Positions 1,981 through 54,605 of a stretch of DNA of 64,000 nucleotides are shown in pieces. Both the position numbers and the translations under genes were made by a program. Each line of letters begins with the position of its first letter. Within the stretch, counting starts at the first letter, position 1. The notes under the pieces are model-generated. The model did no database searches. It worked only from the letters and a program-made list of their open reading frames with translations, and was not told the DNA's origin. The stretch is from Tachypleus tridentatus (lineage: Eukaryota; Arthropoda; Merostomata; Xiphosura; Limulidae): NCBI RefSeq assembly GCF_004210375.1, contig NC_134828.1, positions 19,646,400-19,710,399 on the forward strand, given 5' to 3'.

Positions 1981-2555
1981 AAACAAAGTATAAACTGAAT
2001 TGGAATAAATACTTCAGATTACTGTGTCTGATGTTAAAAAAATTCCTTGGAGACAAAATAAAAGTTACTTACTGAAAACAGTAAAAGAATCTTTCCAATA
2101 AAACTTCAAACATCAAACGTAGCTCTTGTCTTTACATCAATACTTGAACCTTTCAAATAAAAATGTGAAATGACGATTTCGCTTGTTTTAGTTTGGAGTT
2201 ATATAACAATATCGAGAATGTCTTCTCAATGAAAAATAAAATGACATGCGTTTGAGAGTAAACCGTATAAATACAAATCAGGTTAAGACTGTAAAACCTC
2301 ATTTCAGAGGAGTCAAAAAGTAGTGACATCTGTTGACCAAAACTTAAATGAAGTGAAGGAGGAGTAAAACTTTTTAAATAGAAAAACAAAATGAACGAAA
2401 TATTTAAAAGTTATAGTTACGAATGATTCATGAAAGGAAAAGGGGTATTAATTAATAATTGGGAATTCGATCTGAAAATATTCAATAAGTGATTTTACAC
2501 TTCGAAACCAAAGAAAGGTGAAAGTGATTTAAGAAATAAATTTTGAAACGTGATG

Positions 2556-5500
2556 ATGACGTTAAAGTATATATTTTAATACATTGTAGTAGCCTCACCT
2601 GGATGATGATGTTAAAGTATATATTATAATACATTGTAGTAGCCTCACCTGGATGATGATGTTAAAGTATATATTATAATACATTGTAGTAGCCTCACCT
2701 GGATGATGATGTTAAAGTATATATTATAATACATTGTAGTAGCCTCACCTGGATGATGATGTTAAAGTATATATTATAATACATTGTAGTAGCCTCACCT
2801 GGATGATGATGTTAAAGTATATATTATAATACATTGTAGTAGCCTCACCAGGATGATGATGTTAAAGTATATATTATAATACATTGTAGTAGCCTCACCT
2901 GGATGATGATGTTAAAGTATATATTATAATACATTGTAGTAGCCTCACCTGGATGATGATGTTAAAGTATATATTATAATACATTGTAGTAGCCTCACCT
3001 GGATGATGATGTTAAAGTATATATTATAATACATTGTAGTAGCCTCACCTGGATGATGATGTTAAAGTATATATTATAATACATTGTAGTAGCCTCACCT
3101 GGATGATGATGTTAAAGTATATATTATAATACATTGTAGTAGCCTCACCTGGATGATGATGTTAAAGTATATATTATAATACATTGTAGTAGCCTCACCT
3201 GGATGATGATGTTAAAGTATATATTATAATACATTGTAGTAGCCTCACCTGGATGATGATGTTAAAGTATATATTATAATACATTGTAGTAGCCTCACCT
3301 GGATGATGATGTTAAAGTATATATTATAATACATTGTAGTAGCCTCACCTGGATGATGATGTTAAAGTATATATTATAATACATTGTAGTAGCCTCACCT
3401 GGATGATGATGTTAAAGTATATATTATAATACATTGTAGTAGCCTCACCTGGATGATGATGTTAAAGTATATATTATAATACATTGTAGTAGCCTCACCT
3501 GGATGATGATGTTAAAGTATATATTATAATACATTGTAGTAGCCTCACCTGGATGATGATGTTAAAGTATATATTATAATACATTGTAGTAGCCTCACCT
3601 GGATGATGATGTTAAAGTATATATTATAATACATTGTAGTAGCCTCACCTGGATGATGATGTTAAAGTATATATTTTAATACATTGTAGTAGCCTCACCT
3701 GGATGATGATGTTAAAGTATATATTATAATACATTGTAGTAGCCTCACCTGGATGATGATGTTAAAGTATATATTATAATACATTGTAGTAGCCTCACCT
3801 GGATGATGATGTTAAAGTATATATTATAATACATTGTAGTAGCCTCACCTGGATGATGATGTTAAAGTATATATTATAATACATTGTAGTAGCCTCACCT
3901 GGATGATGATGTTAAAGTATATATTATAATACATTGTAGTAGCCTCACCTGGATGATGATGTTAAAGTATATATTATAATACATTGTAGTAGCCTCACCT
4001 GGATGATGATGTTAAAGTATATATTATAATACATTGTAGTAGCCTCACCTGGATGATGATGTTAAAGTATATATTATAATACATTGTAGTAGCCTCACCT
4101 GGATGATGATGTTAAAGTATATATTATAATACATTGTAGTAGCCTCACCTGGATGATGATGTTAAAGTATATATTATAATACATTGTAGTAGCCTCACCT
4201 GGATGATGATGTTAAAGTATATATTATAATACATTGTAGTAGCCTCACCTGGATGATGATGTTAAAGTATATATTATAATACATTGTAGTAGCCTCACCT
4301 GGATGATGATGTTAAAGTATATATTATAATACATTGTAGTAGCCTCACCTGGATGATGATGTTAAAGTATATATTATAATACATTGTAGTAGCCTCACCT
4401 GGATGATGATGTTAAAGTATATATTATAATACATTGTAGTAGCCTCACCTGGATGATGATGTTAAAGTATATATTATAATACATTGTAGTAGCCTCACCT
4501 GGATGATGATGTTAAAGTATATATTATAATACATTGTAGTAGCCTCACCTGGATGATGATGTTAAAGTATATATTATAATACATTGTAGTAGCCTCACCT
4601 GGATGATGATGTTAAAGTATATATTATAATACATTGTAGTAGCCTCACCTGGATGATGATGTTAAAGTATATATTATAATACATTGTAGTAGCCTCACCT
4701 GGATGATGATGTTAAAGTATATATTATAATACATTGTAGTAGCCTCACCTGGATGATGATGTTAAAGTATATATTATAATACATTGTAGTAGCCTCACCT
4801 GGATGATGATGTTAAAGTATATATTATAATACATTGTAGTAGCCTCACCTGGATGATGATGTTAAAGTATATATTATAATACATTGTAGTAGCCTCACCT
4901 GGATGATGATGTTAAAGTATATATTATAATACATTGTAGTAGCCTCACCTGGATGATGATGTTAAAGTATATATTATAATACATTGTAGTAGCCTCACCT
5001 GGATGATGATGTTAAAGTAAAGTATATATTGATAATACATTGTAGTAGCCTCACCTGGATGATGATGTTAAAGTATATATTATAATACATTGTAGTAGCC
5101 TCACCTGGATGATGATGTTAAAGTATATATTATAATACATTGTAGTAGCCTCACCTGGATGATGATGTTAAAGTATATATTATAATACATTGTAGTAGCC
5201 TCACCTGGATGATGATGTTAAAGTATATATATATAATACATTGTAGTAGCCTCACCTGGATGATGATGTTAAAGTATATATTTTAATACATTGTAGTAGC
5301 CTCACCTGGATGATGATGTTAAAGTATATATTATAATACATTGTAGTAGCCTCACCTGGATGATGATGTTAAAGTATATATTATAATACATTGTAGTAGC
5401 CTCACCTGGATGATGATGTTAAAGTATATATTATAATACATTGTAGTAGCCTCACCTGGATGATGATGTTAAAGTATATATTATAATACATTGTAGTAGC

Positions 5501-7404
5501 CTCACCTGGATGATGATGTTAAAGTATATATTATAATACATTGTAGTAGCCTCACCTGGATGATGATGTTAAAGTATATATTATAATACATTGTAGTAGC
5601 CTCACCTGGATGATGATGTTAAAGTATATATTATAATACATTGTAGTAGCCTCACCTGGATGATGATGTTAAAGTATATATTATAATACATTGTAGTAGC
5701 CTCACCTGGATGATGATGTTAAAGTATATATTATAATACATTGTAGTAGCCTCACCTGGATGATGATGTTAAAGTATATATTATAATACATTGTAGTAGC
5801 CTCACCTGGATGATGATGTTAAAGTATATATTATAATACATTGTAGTAGCCTCACCTGGATGATGATGTTAAAGTATATATTATAATACATTGTAGTAGC
5901 CTCACCTGGATGATGATGTTAAAGTATATATTATAATACATTGTAGTAGCCTCACCTGGATGATGATGTTAAAGTATATATTATAATACATTGTAGTAGC
6001 CTCACCTGGATGATGATGTTAAAGTATATATTATAATACATTGTAGTAGCCTCACCTGGATGATGATGTTAAAGTATATATTATAATACATTGTAGTAGC
6101 CTCACCTGGATGATGATGTTAAAGTATATATTATAATACATTGTAGTAGCCTCACCTGGATGATGATGTTAAAGTATATATTATAATACATTGTAGTAGC
6201 CTCACCTGGATGATGATGTTAAAGTATATATTATAATACATTGTAGTAGCCTCACCTGGATGATGATGTTAAAGTATATATTATAATACATTGTAGTAGC
6301 CTCACCTGGATGATGATGTTAAAGTATATATTATAATACATTGTAGTAGCCTCACCTGGATGATGATGTTAAAGTATATATTATAATACATTGTAGTAGC
6401 CTCACCTGGATGATGATGTTAAAGTATATATTATAATACATTGTAGTAGCCTCACCTGGATGATGATGTTAAAGTATATATTATAATACATTGTAGTAGC
6501 CTCACCTGGATGATGATGTTAAAGTATATATTATAATACATTGTAGTAGCCTCACCTGGATGATGATGTTAAAGTATATATTATAATACATTGTAGTAGC
6601 CTCACCTGGATGATGATGTTAAAGTATATATTATAATACATTGTAGTAGCCTCACCTGAATGATGATGTTAAAGTATATATTATAATACCCTGTAGTAGC
6701 CTCATTTGGATTATGATGTTAAAGTAAATATTTTAATACATTGTAGTAGCCTCACCTGGATTATGATGTTAAAGTATATATTATAATACATTGTAGTAGC
6801 CTCACCTGGATGATGATGTTAAAGTATATATTATAATACATTGTAGTAGCCTCACCTGGATGATGATGTTAAAGTATATATTATAATACATTGTAGTAGC
6901 CTCACCTGGATTATGATGTTAAAGTATATATTATAACACATTGTAGTACCCTCACCTGGATTATGATGTTAAAGTATATATTATAATACATTGTAGTAGC
7001 CTCACCTGGATGATGATGTTAAAGTATATATTATAATATATTGTAGTAGCCTCACCTGGATGATGATGTTAAAGTATATATTTTAATACATTGTAGTAGC
7101 CTCACCTGGATGATGATGTTAAAGTATATATTATAATACATTGTAGTAGCCTCACCTGGATGATGATGTTAAAGTATATATTATAATACATTGTAGTAGC
7201 CTCACCTGGATGATGATGTTAAAGTATATATTATAATACATTGTCGTAGCCTCACCTGGATGATGATGTTAAAGTATATATTATAATACATTGTAGTAGC
7301 CTCACCTGGATGATGATGTTAAAGTATATATTATAATACATTGTAGTAGCCTCACCTGGATGATGATGTTAAAGTATATATTATAATACATTGTAGTAGC
7401 CTCA
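2556..7404. repeat. 50-bp satellite array 1, about 97 units
   Basis: A 50-bp unit (ggatgatgatgttaaag, then an AT-rich core, then acattgtagtagcctcacct) is repeated head to tail about 97 times. Nearly all units are identical. Exceptions include the ttttaat variants near 2574 and 3672, a unit with an insertion around 5010-5030, a lengthened TA run near 5226, and a diverged patch at 6655-6960. Homogeneity is far higher than in array 2. No open frame crosses it, because 50 is not a multiple of three and every frame meets stops. Confidence 0.97.
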
Positions 7405-7776
7405 CCTTACTTATTAACGTATTTCTTGTGGATATTTTACCCGTTTCCAAACTTTGCTGTACTCGTCCTATGAAATGTGGTGGTCAATTATCTGTCTAGA
7501 ATGCACCAATCAATCCATTGGTCACTAAAAACAAAGGTAACATTTCTCTTCATCTCTTGATAATTGGTGTGTTACTTTAAAACCTAACAAAACCAAGGGA
7601 CAAGAAAATATTCTCCCAAAGCAGTTCATAAAATATTCACCACACATATACATTTCAGAAAAACGACAAATTCCTATGGGTTACATCTACGTAACTAAAA
7701 TTGTATCAATCATCAAATGTAACACAATGTCTCATTCACGTAACAAAAATATGTGGCATCCAAGAAACCTGCACAA

Positions 7777-14190: not shown

Positions 14191-14585
14191 TGGTGTTTCT
14201 TATGTTTGTATTCTGTTTGTTGTGTACTTTTTTTAGCATAGAACTGATTGTGTTTTTAATGTTTTCTGTGTACTCCACTTATTTTGTAATGAATACTGTT
14301 TTTAATGTTTGTATATTTGTTGTGTATTCCACATAAGACAGAGTTGATTGTGTTTTAATGTTTGTATATTTGTTGTGTACTCCACTTAGGATAGAGTTGA
14401 TAGTATTTTTAATGTTTGTAATTTCTTTCTTAGGTTTTCAATTATCATAGAGTTTACAGTGGTTTTATTGTTTGTATTCTCTTTGTTGTTTACTCCATTC
14501 ATCATATTGTTGATGGTGTTTTTAAAAGATAGAACAAGTCGTACTATCTTTGGATAGTCGATACAGTGATTTATAGTTAATGGCT
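14188..14585. repeat. Degenerate 54-59-bp tandem repeat, about 7 units
   Basis: Units of the type tttttaatgtttgta, then ttgttgtgtactccactta, then an agagttgat motif recur with drift. The mirrored array at 43225-43755 has about ten units. Confidence 0.75.
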
Positions 14586-19339: not shown

Positions 19340-20441
19340 AACAAAGAGTTACATGGTCATACGTCTCATACTGCTTACCAGACGTCTTATCATGTATTGT
19401 AAAATATACTGCCAGTCGTCTTGCAGTACATGGGTAAGCTGATATCTGTTCTCTGGTAATCTCTGGAGATTACTGGCTACTAGATGTCTTATCCCATATT
19501 GAAGACTCTTCTGCCACTCGTCCTGCTGTATTTGAATGAGTTGTTATCTGTTCTGTGGTGATCACTGGAGACTACTGGTCACCAGATGTCTTGTTTTATA
19601 TTCAAAAATCCCACGCCACTTGTCCTGCAATATCTGGATCAACTGTTATCTGCTCTCTTTGTAATCTTTGTAGGTGTTGTATCCTACCTCATCCCATATA
19701 TCTTCAGTCCAGTGAAGGTAGTGGTAAGTATAATGATCATATAATTACGACAACATATTCTGCATGGATACGTGCAGAGTGTAAACAAGCATTGTCCAGC
19801 TACAATACAGTGACGTCATGGTGGTCTCTGAGGAAGGAAATTACGTGGGGTTTTAGCACGTTGAGCATTCAGGTTCCTCTGTATGTGATATTCTGTGGTT
19901 GCATCCTCATACAACTACACTAGGGACACTCCAGTGATTGGTCTGTCGTCATATTGCTTTCCTTCTCTTCTCCAGACAAGTTGAAGTCCATCAGACCCGA
20001 CAATACGAAAACGTGACTCATCTGTGAATAGAACAGTGTTTCACTTTCTCTCAGTAGACGTAACAGATAGCACCATATGGCTTTGTTCTAAGAAGACCCA
20101 AACCAATCATCACTCTTGCTGCCTATATTATTACATTCTGGTTTGATGATGTGCTAAAGTGAAGTCTTGGTTCCTAAGTAGTCAAAGATGCTTTTATGGT
20201 GGTCAAGTAGTCCTGACGAATCACGTGAAGTCTTACTATCCATCTGGGCTCATATGAATGGCTCTATCTTAATGTAGTGATGTACTGCCATCCAGGACGC
20301 TGTTAGTCATCAAATGATCCTCTCAAACTGTGGCACTGAACTAGCTTCATAATGATTGACCGATTGCATTACAATCTAGCTTCCATCCAGTTGTAGAATA
20401 CTGTCAGCATGGTGACCTTCCATGTGTGATAAACGTGGCAT
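19340..20441 (-). pseudogene. Tc1/mariner-family transposase relic (left arm)
   Basis: Read on the reverse strand from a start-like MPRLSH at 20441, the sequence passes through a degenerate N-terminal helix-turn-helix region, then FTDESRFRIV with the first catalytic Asp (about 20030), a WRR motif, and a QLDNA-like second Asp block (about 19800). It ends in a tail that is tandemly repeated. The order and motifs are those of Tc1-like DDE transposases. Many stops and frameshifts, plus a deletion in the region of the third acidic residue, make it inactive. Terminal inverted repeats were not identified. Copies lie at 37941-39045 (+) and 62430-63037 (-). Confidence 0.78.
19379..19665. repeat. Tandem triplication of the Tc1 transposase 3' end, about 103-bp units
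   Basis: Units beginning ccagacgtcttat / ctagatgtcttat / ccagatgtcttg follow one another about every 100-105 bp. On the reverse strand each encodes a version of the family's C-terminal Trp, then RHLV/RRLI, motif. The mirror arm also has three units, but the copy at 62470-62680 has two. Confidence 0.75.
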
Positions 20442-21698: not shown

Positions 21699-22265
21699 GA
21701 AAACAAAGTATAAACTGAATTGGAATAAATCCTTCAGATTACTATGTCTGATGTTAAAAAAATTCCTTGGAGACAAAATAAAAGTTACTTACTGAAAACA
21801 GTAAAAGAATCTTTCCAATAAAACTTCAAACATCAAACGTAGCTCTTGTCTTTACATCAATACTTGAACCTTTCAAATAAAAATGTGAAATGACGATTTC
21901 GCTTGCTTTAGTTTGGAGTTATATAACAATATCGAGACTGTCTTCTCAATGAAAAAATAAAATGTCATGCGTTTGAGAGTAAACCGTATAAATACAAATC
22001 AGGTTTAGACTGTAAAACCTCGGTTCAGAGGAGTCAAAAAGTAGTGACATCTGTTGAGCAAAACTTAAATGAAGTGAAGGAGGAGTAAAACTTTTTAAAT
22101 AGAAAAACAAAATGAACGAAATATTTAAAAGTTATAGTTACGAATGATTCATGAAAGGAAAAGGGGTATTAATTAATAATTGGGAATTCGATCTGAAAAT
22201 ATTCAATAACTGATTTTACACTTCGAAACCAAAGAAAGGTGAAAGAGATTTAAGAAATAAATTTT

Positions 22266-25200
22266 GAAACGTGATGATAACGTTAAAGTATATATTATAA
22301 TACATTGTAGTAGCCTCACCTGGATGATGGCGTTAAAGTATATATTATAATACATTGTAGTAGTCTCACCAGGATGATGATGTTAAAGTATATATTATAA
22401 TACATTGTTGTAGCCTCACCTGGATGATGATGTTAAAGTATATATTATAATACATTGTAGTAGCCTCACCTGGATGATGATGTTAAAGTATATATTATAA
22501 TACATTGTAGTAGCCTCACCTGGATGATGGCGTTAAAGTATATATTATAATACATTGTAGTAGCCTCACGAGGATGATGATGTTAAAGTATATATTATAA
22601 TACATTACAGTAGCCTCACCTGGATGATGGCGTTAAAGTATATATTATAATACATTGTAGTAGCCTCACCTGGATGATGATGTTAAAGTATATATTATAA
22701 TACATTGTAGTAGCCTCACCTGGATTATGATGTTAAAGTATATATTTTAATACATTGTAGTAGTCTCACCAGGATGATGATGTTAAAGTATATATTATAA
22801 TACATTGTTGTAGCCTCACCTGGATGATGGCGTTAAAGTATATATTATAATACATTGTAGTAGTTTCACCTGGATGATGATGTTAAAGTATATATTTTAA
22901 TACATTGTAGTAGCCTCACCTGGATGATGATGTTAAAGTATATATTATAATACATTGTAGTAGCCTCACCTGGATGATGATGTTAAAGTATATATTTTAA
23001 TACATTGTAGTAGTCTCACCTGGATGATGATGTTAAAGTATATATTATAATACATTGTAGTAGCCTCACCTGGATGATGATGTTAAAGTATATATTTTAA
23101 TACATTGTAGTAGCCTCACCTGGATGATGATGTTAAAAGTATATACTTTAATACATTGTAGTAGCCTCACCTGGATGATGATGTTAAAGTATATATTATA
23201 ATACATTATAGTAGTCTCACCAGGATGATGATGTTAAAGTATATATTATAATACATTGTTGTAGCCTCACCTAGATGATGGCGTTAAAGTATATATTATA
23301 ATACATTGTAGTAGCCTCACCTGGATGATGATGTTAAAGTATATATTTTAATACATTGTAGTAGCCTCACCTGGATGATGATGTTAAAGTATATATTATA
23401 ATACATTGTAGTAGCCTCACCTGGATGATGATGTTAAAGTATATATTTTAATACATTGTAGTAGCCTCACCTGGATGATGATGTTAAAGTATATATTTTA
23501 ATACATTGTAGTAGCCTCACCTGGATGATGATGTTAAAGTATATATTTTAATACATTGTAGTAGCCTCACCTGGATGATGATGTTAAAGTATATATTATA
23601 ATACATTGTAGTAGCCTCACCTGGATTATGATGTTAAAGTATATATTATAATACATTGTAGTAGCCTCACCTGGATGATGATGTTAAAGTATATATTATA
23701 ATACATTGTAGTAGCCTCACCTGGATTATGATGTTAAAGTATATATTATAATACATTGTAGTAGCCTCACCTGGATGATGATGTTAAAGTATATATTATA
23801 ATACATTGTAGTAGCCTCACCTGGATGATGATGTTAAAGTATATATTATAATACATTGTTGTAGCCTCACCTGGATGATGACTTTAAAGTATATATTATA
23901 ATACATTGTAGTAGCCTCACCTGGATGATGATGTTAAAGTATATATTATAATACATTGTAGTAGCCTCACCTGGATGATGATGTTAAAGTATATATTATA
24001 ATACATTGTAGTAGCCTCATCTGGATGATGATGTTAAAGTATATATTATAATACATTGTAGTAGCCTCACCTGGATGAGGATGTTAAAGTACATATAATA
24101 ATACATTGTAATAGCCTCACCTGGATGATGATGTTAAAGTATATATTATAATACATTGTAGTAGCCTCACCTGGATGATGATGTTAAAGTATATATTATA
24201 ATACATTGTAGTAGCCTCACCTGGATGATGATGTTAAAGTATATATTATAATACATTGTAGTAGCCTCACCTGGATGATGATGTTAAAGTATATATTATA
24301 ATACATTGTAGTAGCCTCACCTGGATGATGATGTTAAAGTATATATTATAATACATTGTAGTAGCCTCACCTGGATGATGATGTTAAAGTATATATTATA
24401 ATACATTGTAGTAGCCTCACCTGGATGATGATGTTAAAGTATATATTATAATACATTGTAGTAGCCTCACCTGGATGATGATGTTAAAGTATATATTATA
24501 ATACATTGTAGTAGCCTCACCTGGATGATGATGTTAAAGTATATATTTTAATACATTGTAGTAGCCTCACCTGGATGATGATGTTAAAGTATATATTTTA
24601 ATACATTGTAGTAGCCTCACCTGGATGATGATGTTAAAGTATATATTATAATACATTGTAGTAGTCTCACCAGGATGATGATGTTAAAGTATATATTATA
24701 ATACATTGTTGTAGGCTCATCTGGATGATGGCGTTAAAGTATATATTATAATACATTGTAGTAGCCTCACCTGGATGATGATGTTAAAGTATATATTTTA
24801 ATACATTGTAGTAGCCTCACCTGGATGATGATGTTAAAGTATATATTATAATACATTGTAGTAGCCTCACCTGGATGATGATGTTAAAGTATATATTTTA
24901 ATACATTGTAGTAGCCTCACCTGGATGATGATGTTAAAGTATATATTATAATACATTGTAGTAGCCTCACCTGGATGATGATGTTAAAGTATATATTTTA
25001 ATACATTGTAGTAGCCTCACCTGGATGATGATGTTAAAGTATATATTTTAATACATTGTAGTAGCCTCACCTGGATGATGATGTTAAAGTATATATTTTA
25101 ATACATTGTAGTAGCCTCACCTGGATGATGATGTTAAAGTATATATTATAATACATTGTAGTAGCCTCACCTGGATTATGATGTTAAAGTATATATTATA

Positions 25201-26620
25201 ATACATTGTAGTAGCCTCACCTGGATGATGATGTTAAAGTATATATTATAATACATTGTAGTAGCCTCACCTGGATTATGATGTTAAAGTATATATTATA
25301 ATACATTGTAGTAGCCTCACCTGGATGATGATGTTAAAGTATATATTATAATACATTGTAGTAGCCTCACCTGGATGATGATGTTAAAGTATATATTATA
25401 ATACATTGTTGTAGCCTCACCTGGATGATGACTTTAAAGTATATATTATAATACATTGTAGTAGCCTCACCTGGATGATGATGTTAAAGTATATATTATA
25501 ATACATTGTAGTAGCCTCACCTGGATGATGATGTTAAAGTATATATTATAATACATTGTAGTAGCCTCATCTGGATGATGATGTTAAAGTATATATTATA
25601 ATACATTGTAGTAGCCTCACCTGGATGATGATGTTAAAGTACATATAATAATACATTGTAATAGCCTCACCTGGATGATGATGTTAAAGTATATATTATA
25701 ATACATTGTAGTAGCCTCACCTGGATGATGATGTTAAAGTATATATTATAATACATTGTAGTAGCCTCACCTGGATGATGATGTTAAAGTATATATTATA
25801 ATACATTGTAGTAGCCTCACCTGGATGATGATGTTAAAGTATATATTATAATACATTGTAGTAGCCTCACCTGGATGATGATGTTAAAGTATATATTATA
25901 ATACATTGTAGTAGCCTCACCTGGATGATGATGTTAAAGTATATATTATAATACATTGTAGTAGCCTCACCTGGATGATGATGTTAAAGTATATATTATA
26001 ATACATTGTAGTAGCCTCACCTGGATGATGATGTTAAGGTATATATTATAATACATTGTAGTAGCCTCACCTGGATGATGATGTTAAAGTATATATTATA
26101 ATACATTGTAGTAGCCTCATCTGGATTATGATGTTAAAGTATATATTATAATACATTGTAGTAGCCTCACCTGGATGATGATGTTAAAGTATATATTATA
26201 ATACATTGTAGTAACCTTACCTGGATGATGATGTTAAAGTATATATTATAATACATTGTAGTAGCCTCACCTGGATTATGATGTTAAAGTATATATTATA
26301 ATACATTGTAGTAGCCTCACCTGGATGATGATGTTAAAGTATATATTATAATACATTGTAGTAGCCTCACCTGGATGATGATGTTAAAGTATATATTATA
26401 ATACATTGTAGTAGCCACCTGGATGATGATGTTAAAGTATATATTATAATACATTGTAGTAGCCTCACCAGGATGATGATATTAAAGTATATATTATAAT
26501 ACATTGTTGTAGCCTCACCTGGATGATGATGTTAAAGTATATATTATAATACATTGTAGTAGCCTCACCTGGATGATGATGTTAAAGTATATATTATAAT
26601 ACATTGTCGTAGCCTCACCT
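22266..26620. repeat. 50-bp satellite array 2, about 87 units
   Basis: Same 50-bp unit as array 1 but with many recurrent variants: ttttaat against ttataat cores, gatggcgtt, gattatgatg, gtagtctcaccagg, acattgttg, actttaaag and acatataataa. The variants recur in the same order at long intervals, showing higher-order duplication. The ends match array 1, with right flank cttacttattaacgta. Confidence 0.97.
23211..25670. repeat. Higher-order duplication within array 2 (about 1.45-1.55 kb)
   Basis: The variant sequence starting gtagtctcaccagg at 23211 restarts at 24661 (offset 1450). Later markers are 1550 apart: actttaaag at 23881 and 25431, and the acatataataa unit near 24091 and 25641. The offset change is a two-unit indel. 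With A for ttataat and T for ttttaat, copy 1 reads ATATTTA from 23281 and copy 2 reads ATATATTTA from 24731. Confidence 0.9.
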
Positions 26621-26992
26621 TACTTATTAACGTAATTCTTGTGGATATTTTACCCGTTTCCAAACTTTGCTGTACTCGTCCTATGAAATGTGGTGGTCAC
26701 TTATCTGTCTAGAATGCACCAATCAATCCATTGGTCACTACAAACAAAGGTAACGTTTCTCTTCATCTCTTGATAATTAGTGTGTTACTTTAAAACCTAA
26801 CAAAACCAAGGGACAAGAAAATATTCTCCCATAGCAGTTCATAAAATATTCAACACACATATACATTTCAGAAAAACGACCAAATTCCTATGAGTTACAT
26901 ATACGTAACTAACATTCTACCAATCATCAAATCTGTAACACAATGTCTCATTCACGTAACAAAAATAGGTGGCATCCAAGAAACCTGCACAA

Positions 26993-31879: not shown

Positions 31880-32770
31880 TTGTGCAGGTTTCTTGGATCC
31901 ATCCTATTTTTTATTACCTGAATGAGACATTGCATTGCAGAATTGATGATTGGTCCAGTATTAGTTACGTAGATGTAAGACATACGAATTTGGTTGTTTT
32001 TCCGAGATGTATATGTGTATATAATATTTTGTGAACTGCTTTCGGATCATATTTTCTTTTCCCTGGGTTTTCATAAGTTTCAAAGTCACACGACAATGAC
32101 CAAGTGATGAAGAGAAACATGACCTTTGATTGTAGTAGCCAATGGACAGTTGGTGCACTCCAAATACCTGAGTCACCAACTCATTTCCAATGGACAGTTG
32201 GTGCACTCCAAATAGCTGAGTCACCAACTCATTTCCACGCAAGAGTACAGCAAAAATATTTTAATATCCAATTTCAAATTATTAAAAGTCTTTCATGAAA
32301 TATTCGTAGCTTTAACTTTTAAACTTATGTGCTTGAAGTGTAACAGTTAGTTAATTTTGTTTCTCTATATAAACAAATTTGCACCTTTTTTCACTTCATT
32401 CTAGTTTTGATCAACAGATGCCACTACTATGAGAATATGCTGTACAGATGTTTTACAGTCTTAACCCAGCTTATAATTATATGGTTTACTCTCAAACACA
32501 TGCCATTTGACATTTTTTATTAAGAAGACAGTCTAGGTATTGTTATATAACCAAACGAAATCACATCATTTCACGTTTTTATTTGAAAGGTTCAAGTTTT
32601 GATGTAAAGACAAGAGCTACGTTTGATGTTTGAAGTTTTATTGGAAAGATTCTTTTACTGCTTTCGGTAAGTAACTTTTATTTTGTCTCCAAGGAATTTG
32701 TTTCACATCAGACATAGTAATCTGAAGGATTTATTCTAATCCAGTTTATACTTGGTTTGGTACTGAAATA
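31880..32770 (-). repeat. Satellite-free inverted copy of unit U
   Basis: On the reverse strand, 32770-32260 matches the left flank of the satellite in U (1981 to about 2482) and 32254-31880 matches the right flank (about 7453-7790). The two flanks are joined directly at about 32254. The 50-bp array is absent, as are about 70 bp on its left and 47 bp on its right. Divergence is much greater than between U1 and U2. At the same place this copy has its own 48-bp duplication. Confidence 0.78.
32139..32234. repeat. 48-bp tandem duplication, 2 units
   Basis: Two near-identical 48-bp units beginning ccaatggacagttggtgcac (32139-32186 and 32187-32234). The unit aligns with the single-copy U sequence near 7485-7525. 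Confidence 0.93.
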
Positions 32771-34136: not shown

Positions 34137-34173
34137 ATTGTCCGAAAAAAGTTAAGTATAAATCAGGAAGAAT

Positions 34174-35199
34174 ATGAGAAACAGGAATACGGAAAGAGGA
34201 AACACTTCCTTTGAAGTATCAAAAACATTTGGATCTCCCTTTCAGAAAATCAAATTTCCTGGTATTGGAATTATTCTAACTGTATTTCAGTGTATTGCTC
34301 AATGTATTCAATTAATGCTGGTTAAACTTACTCCAGGTGTCTCCAGACAGGTTATTTTGATTTACCGTGGAATATACATGGCTGCTTTCTGTGTACCAAT
34401 TATTGTACATAGCCGTCACTCTTTCTTCCCAAAGATTCTGTTCCAGTATTTAATAATATGCATCCGAGGAATTACTGGAACGATAGGTATATTGTTCTTG
34501 TATAATTCGTTAAACTTCTTGCCACTAAGCGATGTTACAGTCCTTATAAAGACAGAAATTATATTCACTGTAATTTTAGCTTTTTTCATTCTGCGAGAAA
34601 CAACACATTTTATTGACGTAATAGCCATCCTGTTAGCCATTGTTGGGATCATCTTAATTAGTTGTCCATCTTTTATTTTTGGAGGATTGGACAGTAAATT
34701 GGATGCACAATCTCGAATTGTTGGATCGTTACTAGCTGTTGGTTATGGTTTTTTCTCCTCGTTGACGACCATCATAGTGCGTAGGATAAAATCTTTAAAC
34801 TATGCTGTGGTTATCTTCCATTACTGTGTCATCCAGACTCTACTGTTATACACTTATCAGTTTATTGTTAACGACACTGTATTTCCAGAATGTGGAACTG
34901 TGATTTGGTTTATACTTGGAATTGGAATACTTAGTTTTGTCACTCAGTATTTTTATGTTAACGCCCTCTACGTTGAAAAGGCTAGTTGTGTGGCTTTAGT
35001 GGGTTCCTTGGAAATTGTTTTTTCTTTTATCTTTCAAATCACGATAACTGGTGAAGATGTAACTTTGTCGAGTGTGGTAGGTGCAGTGTTCATTACATTA
35101 GCAGTGGTAATGAAAGCATGTCTTCAATGGTATTCTGAAAGTCCTGAGAGTTTTTGGAAAGCTTTGAACAAAATAGGCTTAAGATACTTTAAACGTTAA
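34174..35199 (+). CDS. SLC35G-like EamA/DMT-family transporter, 341 aa
   Basis: A multi-pass membrane protein of the drug/metabolite transporter superfamily, closest in layout to the SLC35G group. The substrate of that group is poorly known, so none is assigned. About ten hydrophobic segments are visible, at residues 29-49, 60-79, 91-110, 117-140, 144-164, 182-202, 211-231, 242-264, 268-290 and 298-316. They form two five-helix EamA repeats. Family-like landmarks are LIYRGIYMA (TM2), RGITGTIGILFLYNSL (TM3), LPLSDVTVLIKTEIIFT (TM4), LRET before TM5, and YFYVNALYVEKAS (TM8-9). The 341-residue length is typical. The start is the first ATG after an in-frame TAA at 34159. The coding sequence is intronless, with a likely intron in the 5' UTR. 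It is the only intact member of five copies or fragments here, and an AATAAA near 35523 could serve polyadenylation. Confidence 0.92.
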   Translation: MRNRNTERGNTSFEVSKTFGSPFQKIKFPGIGIILTVFQCIAQCIQLMLVKLTPGVSRQVILIYRGIYMAAFCVPIIVHSRHSFFPKILFQYLIICIRGITGTIGILFLYNSLNFLPLSDVTVLIKTEIIFTVILAFFILRETTHFIDVIAILLAIVGIILISCPSFIFGGLDSKLDAQSRIVGSLLAVGYGFFSSLTTIIVRRIKSLNYAVVIFHYCVIQTLLLYTYQFIVNDTVFPECGTVIWFILGIGILSFVTQYFYVNALYVEKASCVALVGSLEIVFSFIFQITITGEDVTLSSVVGAVFITLAVVMKACLQWYSESPESFWKALNKIGLRYFKR

Positions 35200-43224: not shown

Positions 43225-43755
43225 TAAAAACACCATCAACAATATGATAAATGGAGTACAAAACAAATAGAATACAAACAATATAAACACTGTAAACTCT
43301 ATGATAATTGGAAAACCTAAGAAACAGTATACAAACATTAAAAATACTTTCAATTCTATGTTAAGTGGTGTACACAACAAACATTAAAATACTATCAACT
43401 CTATCTTAAGTGGAATACACAACAAATATACAAACATTAAAACACAATCAACTCTGTGTTATGTGGAGTACACAACAAATACAATACAAACATTAAAACA
43501 CAATCAACGCTGTGTTATGTGGAGTACACAACAAATACAATACAAACACTAAGACACAATCAACTGTGTTAAGTGGAGTACACAACAAAAATACAAACAT
43601 TAAAAACACTATCAATTCTATGCTAAGTAAAGTACACAACAAACAGAATACAAACATAACAAACACCATCAACTCTATGTAAAGTGGAATACATAACAAA
43701 CAGAACAGAAACATTAAAAACACGATCATCTTTATGTTAAGTAGTGTACAACGTA
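43225..43755. repeat. 54-59-bp tandem repeat, about 10 units
   Basis: Units of the type acaaatacaaacattaaaa, then caatcaactctgtgttatg, then a gtggagtaca motif. The hydrophobic open frames across it (LLCTPLNIEL-type repeats) are a product of the repeat and not a membrane protein gene. Confidence 0.85.
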
Positions 43756-51160: not shown

Positions 51161-52378
51161 ATGGATTTTCTAAATAAAATCTTAAATAAAATAGTGGAAA
51201 AGTATTCCATAGCTAAACGACCATGCCTTGAAGATTCCGAGCAGCAATCTCCAACATCTGTGGTACCCAATTTTCTTATACAATATTCTCTTTCAGACAA
51301 ACCTTTAGGGAAAATGTCTCCCTTTTTCATTGAGAAGGGACTAGAGGGACTTGCTACCTCTCCAAAGTTAGTAAGGAAGCTTCAATCTGGTGACATATTG
51401 GTGGAAACATCCACATCTAAACACAGTGAACTCCTCTTGCATTCAAAGGTGATTGGGGGATGTACCTATTGAGGTTACACCTCATGCTACTTTGAATTCG
51501 TCACAAGGAGTTATTGTTGAGAGGGATTTGAAGAACATCCCTGACTCTGAGATTCTTGCTAGTTTTTCCATCCAAGGAGTTTCTGCAGTAAGACATATCT
51601 CCACTTGCAAAGATGGAATTACTATACCTACCAATATCCTCATTCTGACATTTACATCACCACGTCCACCTGCCACCATCAAGGCAGGTTATCTTAATTG
51701 CAGGGTACAGCCATACATTCCAAACCCTCTCAGATGTTTCCAGTGTCAGCACTTCAGTCACTCAAAGGTTGTCACATCGTGGTTTCTTGACTTGTACTTG
51801 TTGCAATGCCAAGGACCACAATGCCTGTGAGTATGAAAAGGACCTTCATTGCATCAATTGCAATGGCTCTCACCTGCCCTACTTTTGTTTTTGTGCTAAA
51901 TGGTTGGAAGAAAAAGAGGTGCAGCATTTGAAAACAATTCATAACATTACTTACCCTGAGGCTCGAAAGCTGCTGTCCGCCATGTTATCTTGAATGGATG
52001 CTACTGCACTTCATTCCACTACTACAGTGGGAGCGCAGACGGATCTCTCTATGCTTCCAAAAAAAATCGTTCTCAAACCAAAGAAAAGTCTTTTGACCTC
52101 CATGGTTAAAAAATGTTGATGAATCAACTTCAACATCCATCTTTGTCCCTGACATACATTCCAGCAAACCCCAAGATCCACTTCCTTTGGTTCTGGGTTC
52201 AGGCATTTTCTTCAATACATCTTCTTCTCCCACCTCACGATGCAAAACGATCATTTGTTCACGTCCTCAGTCGCTGGAATCCTCTTCCAACAGCAAAGAC
52301 CTGCCCAATCGACCCAAGGCAGGATCCATCGAGGTCGATAGATCTCCCTTGAATAAAGACAGTGTAAAAAAGACATGA
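51161..52378 (+). pseudogene. LINE ORF1 (gag-like, zinc-knuckle) pseudogene
   Basis: Nucleic-acid-binding ORF1 protein of a Jockey-type LINE. It starts MDFLNKILNKIVEKYS at 51161. Around 51520-51720 come RDLKNIPDSEILASF and LTFTSPRPPATIKAGY, typical of the pre-knuckle domain. The zinc knuckles follow: CFQCQHFSHS (about 51736), LTCTCCNAKDHNACEY and LHCINCNGSHLPYFC, then the conserved PEARKLL motif near 51960. Frameshifts near 51460 and 51770 split it into three frames, a stop falls after 51990, and the Ser/Pro-rich C-terminus continues to 52378. It overlaps nothing and lies 50 bp before ORF2. Confidence 0.82.
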
Positions 52379-52427
52379 TCGTGAACAAAAGGGTTTTCCA
52401 CCCAACTCTACCTACACATAAATAAAA

Positions 52428-54605
52428 ATGACCACCTTGATACAGTGGAACTGTTGTCGAGATTTATGTTCTAATATGAATAACACCAAATCACTAATTG
52501 CTTCTTACCATCCTGTATGTCTTTCTTTACATGAAATATTTCTGAAACCTGCCAGTACAATCATCTTTCAATTGTTTTCTTTGTACAGAAATGACAGGCT
52601 ATGGGATGGAAGAGTGGCACTGTTGGCTTATCAGCATGTGCCCACCCTGTGTTTGCAACTCAACACACCCTTGGAGGCCATAGCCATCCATGTTACCTTG
52701 TGTCATACCATCACTGTTTGTTCTATCTACCTGTTTCCTGGAGAGACCTATGATCAATCAGCCCTTGATTCTCTCATTGAATGGTTACTCTCTCCCTTTT
52801 TAATCCTGTGGGAGTTTAATGGACATCATCCCCACTGGAAAAGTGCTGATACTTATAGGAGAGGTCACTCCATAGAGTGTATTCTCTCTGATCACAACCT
52901 TTCTCTTTTCATTTTTGGTTCTTCTACTTATTTTCATGCACCTAGTCAGTCCTTTACTGCTATTGATCTCTTAATTTGCTCCCCTTCACTATTCTCCCAT
53001 TTTTCATGGAGGGTTGGCAATAATCTATGAGGCAGTAATCATTTTGAGAAAGACAAGATATGGTCACTGTCACCCGACCCACGTGCCCTGGTGGAAGCTG
53101 AATCAAGCAAATTGGCCTTCTTTCACTGCTCTTGCAAAACTTGATCCTACCATCGTCTGTAAGCCCACAATAAACGAATCTGTGGCAGCAGTAACTGACT
53201 GTATTATATAAGCAGCTGCTCAATGTATTCCTAAAACCTTGACACGTTTTCCACAATATACTAATCTGTGGTGGAATCTTGCCTGCCACATGGCATGGAA
53301 GGTTCAAAAACAGGCCTGAGATACTTTTCTTTGGTATCCCACACTTTTGCACCACATCGCTTTCCAGCAGGTTGGGGGGGGGGGCACATCTTCGGTGGGT
53401 AACACGTTGAAGCCAGAAGGAATCTTGAATTAAGTTAACAACCAGCATATCTTCTACCACTGACTCCAAAGTCATATGGGATAAGATTCGAAGGGTCAGT
53501 GAACAATATAATTCTGTCCCCCTCTCAATCTTGCTCTCTGATGGCCAGGATGTAGCTGATAACCAGAGCATCGCCAATTCTCTAGATGAAAGCTTTTGCT
53601 GGGTATCTAGCACTTCTACTTCTTCCTCCTCCATCTTAGCCATCAAGACTCGAGCAGAGTGATCACCTATTTCCTTTTGAGCTGATTGTTTCTGTAACTA
53701 TAATCGTCCATTTACGCTGGTGGAGCTCAAACTGGCTCTTCATCGGTCTGACAGTACATCGGTTGGACCTGATGATGAACGCTATGAAATTCTGTGCCAT
53801 CTATCTCCTGCTTCTTTTGCTATTCTTCTGATTGTTTTTTAACTGGATCTGGCAGGAGAATGTTTTTCCTGATGCCTGGTGCCAGGCTATTGTTCTTCCT
53901 TTCTCTAAGCCTGGGAAAGATCCCAAGACTCCTTCACTCTGCCATTCAATTGCTTTGATGAGAGAGCTGTCTCTGCATGACCTTAGAGGAGGGTTAATGC
54001 TCGTCTCGTTTGGTTCCTCTCACCCACCCAGTGTGGGTACTGATGACCTCACTTCACCACAACCACCTAATTTGACTTGAACTGTCAATCAGAGAAGCCT
54101 TTGTCAAACAACAACATCTTGCATCAATATTCTTTGACATTGACAATGCTTATAATATATCATGGAGGTATGGCATTTTGTAAGACCTCCATATATATGG
54201 GTTATGTGGCCATTTGTCCATTTTTATTACGATTTTTTTAATGGACAGGAGATTCCACGTTCGTGTGAGTTCAACACTTTCCCGTTCTTTTTGAGTGTCA
54301 CAATTTTCAGTATAAAGATTAATGCCATCACTGAAGAACTCCCTCTTACTGTTGCAAACAAGCTTTATGTCGAAGACTTTCACATCTCTGTCAATAATAA
54401 AACATGAGGTATATTGAGCACCCACTACAGACTGCCCTCAATCGTTTACTGAAGTGGACCACATCAAACGGCTTTAACTTCTCTCTGTCTAAAACCGTTT
54501 GCATGCACTTTTTGCCGCCAATGGGGTATTTACCTTGATCCTAAACTGCGTATTGGAGAAGTTGTGCTCTCAAAACAAGTAATTACTAAGGGTATCTGTT
54601 AAAAG
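52428..54605 (+). pseudogene. LINE ORF2 (endonuclease and reverse transcriptase) pseudogene
   Basis: The start MTTLIQWNCCRDL opens an apurinic-type endonuclease domain, intact in frame to about 53030. It includes the FNGHHPHWKS motif (usual form GDFN.HH) and IDLLICSPSL. Beyond that many stops, frameshifts and a ten-G run near 53377 break the linker. RT pieces remain: ASIFFDIDNAYNISWRYGI (54125-54182), DRRFHVRVSSTLSRSF, and a YxDD active site altered to YVED in KLYVEDFHI (about 54361-54387). The catalytic change, stops and missing 3' part rule out activity. Confidence 0.83.

Follow-up and report, generated by a model that had tools for sequence, protein, structure and literature searches.

Paralogous copies of one stretch of DNA in Tachypleus tridentatus come in two forms: "filled" copies hold an array of a 50-bp satellite, and "empty" copies do not. 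The two are genuine paralogues, in which the unique sequence to either side of the site is homologous, and the phylogeny of this flanking sequence indicates a single old event that divides a local segmental-duplication cluster into two subfamilies. The difference between them is a case of something already known, the presence and absence of a satellite or VNTR in paralogues that arose by segmental duplication; a partial search of the literature found no published account of this 50-bp array. Its value is that a single genome offers no fewer than 17 filled and 12 empty sites among paralogues, mostly with common boundaries and with measurable flank divergence, which makes it possible to distinguish array turnover, the escape of edge units and inter-array exchange.

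The history that we propose has three parts. The ancestor of the empty copies would have lost 69 bp, the array and 45 bp in one deletion. The array of the filled subfamily would have travelled with the duplicated block, its length changed by unequal exchange inside the array and its outer boundaries mostly fixed. Less securely, exchange between arrays or constraint on the unit may have kept one 50-mer commonest nearly everywhere. Taken whole (old subfamilies, deletion, intra-array exchange, and inter-array exchange or constraint), this account seems to us moderately probable.

The empty site and its filled counterparts

The window is the whole stretch of 64,000 nucleotides that was analysed (C4:19646400-19710399, in a 2.17-Gb assembly of 205 contigs). 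It contains two filled copies, U1 and U2, and the focal empty copy, which lies on the minus strand (Table 1). The first-pass annotation had held that the focal stretch carries both flanks of the array, joined directly near 32254, and that about 70 bp on the left and 47 bp on the right are absent together with the array itself. Alignment agrees to within two bases: the join is at 32255/32254, and the array, 69 bp and 45 bp are missing. Against the reverse complement of the focal stretch, the left flank of U1 is homologous as far as window position 2482 (75% over 996 columns; E reported as 0.0), and homology on the right starts at 7453 (main piece 78% over 325 columns, 1e-69); for U2, homology stops on the left at 22203 (80% over 525 columns, 5e-122) and starts on the right at 26666 (main piece 80% over 325 columns, 1e-75). 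Flank E-values of 1e-69 or better exclude a chance match, and with it the idea that the flanks might not be homologous. On the right, homology covers only about 325 bp (7453-7776 against 32254-31880); on the left, the homology of the focal copy to U1 continues into the neighbouring gene, up to 35064.

Table 1. Features of the empty copy, the filled copies and related paralogues (window positions)
Feature	Position	Strand	Remarks
Left flank, empty copy	32255..32770	-	homologous to ~1981-2482 and 21701-22203
Empty join	32254..32255	-	filled copies hold 69 bp + array + 45 bp here
Right flank, empty copy	31880..32254	-	homologous to 7453-7776 and 26666-26992
48-bp tandem duplication	32139..32237	-	2.1 copies, 98%; ~20 bp from join
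Intact EamA-family transporter ORF beside empty site	34162..35199	+	PF00892, E 1.2e-24; site ~1.9 kb upstream
69-bp left segment, U1	2483..2551	+	filled copies only; U2 equivalent 22204-22272
50-bp satellite array, U1	2552..7407	+	97 copies by TRF; consensus = 82/94 extracted units
45-bp right segment, U1	7408..7452	+	filled copies only; U2 equivalent 26621-26665
50-bp satellite array, U2	22273..26620	+	87 copies by TRF; consensus = 36/86 extracted units
53-bp minisatellite, third paralogue class, copy T1 (corresponding interval)	14293..14522	-	
57-bp minisatellite, third paralogue class, copy T2	43225-43750		

Could an empty copy reveal the seed from which the satellite grew, as had been suggested? 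It reveals none, because the neighbourhood of the array is absent from it, the unit does not match it above chance, and the 69 and 45 bp are unlike the unit. Local alignment of the unit with the empty copy, in search of a single-copy seed, scored 24, against 26 for the 96th of 100 first-order Markov resamples; the best match, GGCTACTACAAT (right flank, opposite strand), is within chance, and the unit likewise fails to rise above resampled controls in U1's own flanks or in two third-class paralogues of the window. The 69- and 45-bp segments were also considered as degenerate satellite units and rejected in that role (p 0.18-0.87 over three scoring schemes, and 0.06-0.91 when 100 bp more outside them are taken in, both for the U1 copy only).

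Two subfamilies in a transporter gene cluster

At least 43 matches to the focal 891 bp were found in the genome (40 of 47 candidates scored), and all fall within 17.81-20.01 Mb of C4. A survey of the genome for filled and empty copies, which the first-pass annotation had advised, yielded 17 left array ends, 13 right ends and 12 empty joins, every one of them on C4 at 17.8-20.0 Mb and within a cluster of EamA-family transporter genes. The left ends were recovered at identical places by pattern and by DNA (17 each; 17/17 candidates scored), and all 17 share one phase. Right ends number 11 by pattern and 13 by DNA (13/13 candidates scored); all 11 of those read, of the 13 found, start at one base of the right segment, and at the otherwise standard right edge of U19238 the last array unit is slightly altered. 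This edge is kept in 11 of the 13 filled copies whose right side was read and deleted in the other two, U19988 and U19728. The empty join was found by genome-wide pattern at 11 places, and a 12th copy has a small deletion at the join. As for the satellite itself, the 34-bp core of its unit, sought in the genome with a pattern, occurs 3380 times within 3 mismatches, and among the matches listed all are on C4.

Twelve of the filled copies lie at 19.26-19.67 Mb, four amid the empty copies at 19.68-20.01 Mb and one at 17.81 Mb. In nine, the two ends share a strand and are less than 10 kb apart, the distance being roughly 0.95 to 9.1 kb, and six of these were read through; the remainder are cut by gaps, rearranged, or extend past the sequence read. 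Some arrays stand apart from these copies. One (L026, C4:19408475-19408995), which is not counted among the 17 left ends, comes directly after a truncated left flank, some 540 bp including the 69-bp segment being gone. A further 50-bp array (L030 and L031, C4:17782182 to at least 17790466, minus strand) is separated by about 20 kb from that of the filled copy at 17.81 Mb; the 8 kb of sequence read across its two ends contained no flank from U1, from an empty copy or from a gene.

The gene beside the empty site in the window is presumably SLC35G1-like. In U1 the 69 bp, array and 45 bp sit about 1.65 kb upstream of a gene, and the arrangement is general: in all 12 empty and at least 14 of the 17 filled copies the site is upstream of an EamA-family gene that is no more than about 4 kb away (40 of 340 candidates scored); among the matches listed, there is no such gene for U2 or for the copies at 19711 and 19970 kb. 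A second cluster of related genes occupies C4:31.8-33.8 Mb, with further copies on C2, and amounts to a large expansion of the same transporter family in which many copies have stops; matches to the transporter protein in the whole genome, the first cluster included, number at least 123 (119 of 1030 candidates scored).

Two regions from that distant cluster on C4 served as outgroup rows for the left-flank tree. All 17 filled copies fall into one group (support 92/97) and all 12 empty copies into another (87/86), which is moderate support. In the right-flank tree the two groups, of 11 rows each, have 100/100; U19988 and U19728 were left out of the right-flank sets because of their deleted edge, and the focal copy was left out of the tree because of its duplication. 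Substitution divergence in the left flank is 3.0% within filled copies, 2.5% within empty copies and 12.9% between them; in the right flank it is 2.7% within filled copies, 22.6% between the classes, and 8.8% within empty copies, a figure probably inflated by a deletion in three rows. Filled and empty copies each forming a separate branch, one change on the tree explains the difference.

The comparison of filled with empty paralogues that had been proposed from the window alone is thus sound: its flanks are homologous and it needs only one change. The placing of that change is another matter. It had been assigned either to the ancestor of U1 and U2 or to the focal copy by itself; instead there are two old subfamilies, the empty state being common to 12 copies. 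Nor did the survey show that flanks without the array are always later deletions, and the empty copies do not nest inside the filled ones.

Might the empty copies be nothing but collapsed or misjoined arrays, artefacts of assembly? Some arrays do abut gaps of 500 N, and the spacing of units is noisy beside gaps. But 12 empty copies with one common join stand on a branch of their own, 13-23% from the filled copies in both flanks, and they also lack bases that are not repeats, a pattern that collapse would not produce. We consider an artefact scarcely credible.

Two observations on the genes of these copies may be added. The gene differs by 3.2% between the classes (5 empty-class and 8 filled-class genes compared), against 12.9% and 22.6% upstream, and one filled/empty gene pair has synonymous differences at 8 of 232 sites; the gene-centred similarity looks as if gene conversion had been focused on the gene. 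The two filled copies with a deleted right edge (U19988 at C4 ~19986952-19989800, U19728 at 19727008-19730000) are sister copies with short arrays, of 11 and 7 units respectively, and their genes pair outside both the filled-class and the empty-class genes.

Loss or gain

Which way did the change go? As far as the trees can tell, gain and loss would fit the reciprocal branches equally, because the outgroup profiles match only about U1 2053-2343: in the two outgroup upstream regions, L049 and L050 (from 2 of the many genes at 31.8-33.8 Mb), profile matches end some 140 bp before the join. L049 has a weak pairwise match, out of order, to U1 2451-2551, the last 100 bp before the array (64%, E 6.6e-4); the profiles did not confirm it, and if they did it would favour loss. 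Related species could decide between gain and loss directly.

The balance tips slightly towards a single deletion in the ancestor of the empty copies, on an argument from parsimony that is no demonstration. The lean towards loss comes from the 114 bp (69 and 45), which are found only at arrays and whose ends show neither a duplication nor an inverted repeat or hairpin beyond chance expectation; a deletion would account for unique sequence going along with the array, and no source of an insertion is found elsewhere in the assembly. Matches to the 69-bp edge are at arrays in 17 of 17 cases by DNA and 14 of 14 by end pattern, and matches to the 45-bp edge in 13 of 13 and 12 of 12; reversed-pattern controls gave 0 for both. 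Such a loss would not be the precise one that had been envisaged, since those 114 bp of non-satellite sequence also differ. No duplication or other scar is seen at the join, where divergence of 13-23% might have erased one.

Gain would run the other way: the ancestor of the filled subfamily would have acquired 69 bp, one or more units and 45 bp at an empty site, the unit then expanding, and the empty state would be ancestral. The trees permit this equally; none of the 12 empty copies showed a satellite unit in the surrounding 1.8-3.9 kb that was read; and the restriction of the 69 and 45 bp to arrays is what gain would also leave behind. What it wants is a donor: the ends occur only at arrays of the cluster, the unit matches listed keep to C4, and an insertion that leaves no target duplication, terminal repeats or relatives requires more assumptions than a deletion. 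Gain is possible, if on the doubtful side.

A special case of gain would make the 69 bp, array and 45 bp a non-autonomous Helentron-like element (HINE) inserted between two T's. Elements of this kind have subterminal inverted repeats or a terminal hairpin. The filled copies do have central tandem repeats between two unique ends, and the join (ATATT-insert-TTTGC, falling between two T's in the empty copies) has no target-site duplication, a weak test since the flanks differ by 13-23%. In all these respects, and in being open to comparison with empty sites, the locus is like the HINEs of the Pacific oyster, which are reported (PMC7492417) to make no target-site duplication, to prefer TT in a T-rich target, and to have been examined by an empty-site test. 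It is unlike them in that neither end is found outside one cluster, every match being at an array there with reversed-pattern controls at 0, and in that no inverted repeat or hairpin rises above chance (for the U1 copy only, p 0.20 for an inverted repeat between the ends, and 0.16 on the left and 0.67 on the right for hairpins against shuffles); its arrays, at more than 400 units, are also far longer than the short ones of the oyster paper. We think a HINE very improbable, and return to the deletion and to what followed in the filled subfamily.

Array turnover and the constancy of the 50-mer

Arrays range from 7 to more than 400 units, one having 417 within the 21 kb read. Units identical to the consensus make up 410 of 417, 66 of 68 and 158 of 181 in three arrays, and the fractions of Table 1 in U1 and U2, the latter being mixed; arrays beside assembly gaps have irregular spacing, and consensus polishing could overstate the uniformity of the long ones. 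The left edge is different: the first unit is the consensus in only 1 of 17 copies and has the same C in 14 of 17, whereas among units 3-6 the consensus accounts for 49 of 68. From this divergence of first units, homogenisation does not reach the edge of the array, as exchange inside arrays would lead one to expect; unequal exchange within arrays with a sheltered left edge fits the first-unit pattern.

Exchange between arrays is harder to judge. The commonest unit is the consensus 50-mer in 23 of 25 arrays or pieces (some pieces being the two ends of one array); the two exceptions, the 7-unit arrays of U19508 and U19728, have a commonest unit that is seen only twice. This holds although the left flanks of the filled copies differ by about 3%. 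Under independent drift of the arrays at the flank rate, the commonest unit should have changed about 8.9 times on the 15-copy filled tree, U19508 and U19728 left out, and 0 changes are seen (P ~1.4e-4), an expectation that assumes neutral replacement at that rate and fast turnover and is overstated for mixed arrays like U2. A commonest 50-mer shared despite flank divergence hints at exchange between arrays or at constraint. Conversely, nine arrays contain 74 variant unit types, 11 of them in more than one array and 63 in one only, and so large a private share speaks against very frequent exchange between arrays. A stronger proposition strikes us as rather unlikely: that frequent exchange among paralogous arrays, or constraint on the unit as an upstream regulatory element of the transporter genes, preserves the 50-mer in arrays separated by as much as about 2 Mb, even as the sequence beside them diverges. 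Were it true, the filled and empty subfamilies would be a natural experiment on the effect of an upstream satellite on a gene family. Expression of genes with and without the array can in any event be compared inside one animal.

Two kinds of known system are instructive here. Euchromatic satellites near genes, such as the 1.688 family of Drosophila, form arrays of short units among genes, vary in length, and are present or absent between related loci; the 50-bp arrays are alike on all three counts. They are unlike in belonging, as far as was searched, to one segmental-duplication cluster on one contig, in that the filled and empty sites compared belong to paralogues within a single genome, and in that 114 bp of unique sequence accompany the array. 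A VNTR or minisatellite in a duplicated gene block spreads with the block, alters its length by unequal exchange and has a diverged edge unit. Here too there is a diverged edge unit, and the array was probably borne by the block and altered in length by unequal exchange; unlike the usual VNTR, arrays as far as about 2 Mb from one another nearly all have one commonest unit, with left flanks about 3% diverged.

Is the site itself prone to tandem expansion? The first-pass annotation took the 48-bp duplication near the join as a sign that it is. The duplication is real, but it is private to the focal copy (1 of 12 empty copies) and lends the idea little support when 42-57% of random intervals of 1.1-2.2 kb in the neighbouring 200 kb overlap a tandem array with a period of at least 20. 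A nearby deletion is common to three other empty copies, of 104 bp relative to the focal copy or about 56 bp relative to copies without the duplication. Third-class (T) paralogues have a 53-57-bp minisatellite, unrelated to the 50-bp satellite, in all 8 intervals checked (two further T-like left pieces, which lack a right flank, were not counted); as evidence of a special site these minisatellites were rejected, the copies being interrelated and the base rate being the same 42-57%.

The window as a whole has 27 merged arrays with a period of at least 20, which together take up 16 kb; minisatellite periods are 29, 30, 34, 39, 44, 53-57, 61 and 102 bp. It also holds ORF pieces, at 51453-53027, of what may be a LINE-like element: the piece at 51453-51827 matches no Pfam family, and that at 52422-53027 matches the endonuclease-reverse transcriptase family PF14529 (E 1.1e-10). 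The 34-bp minisatellite, which lies between the gene and the left flank, varies from 5 to 28 units among paralogues.
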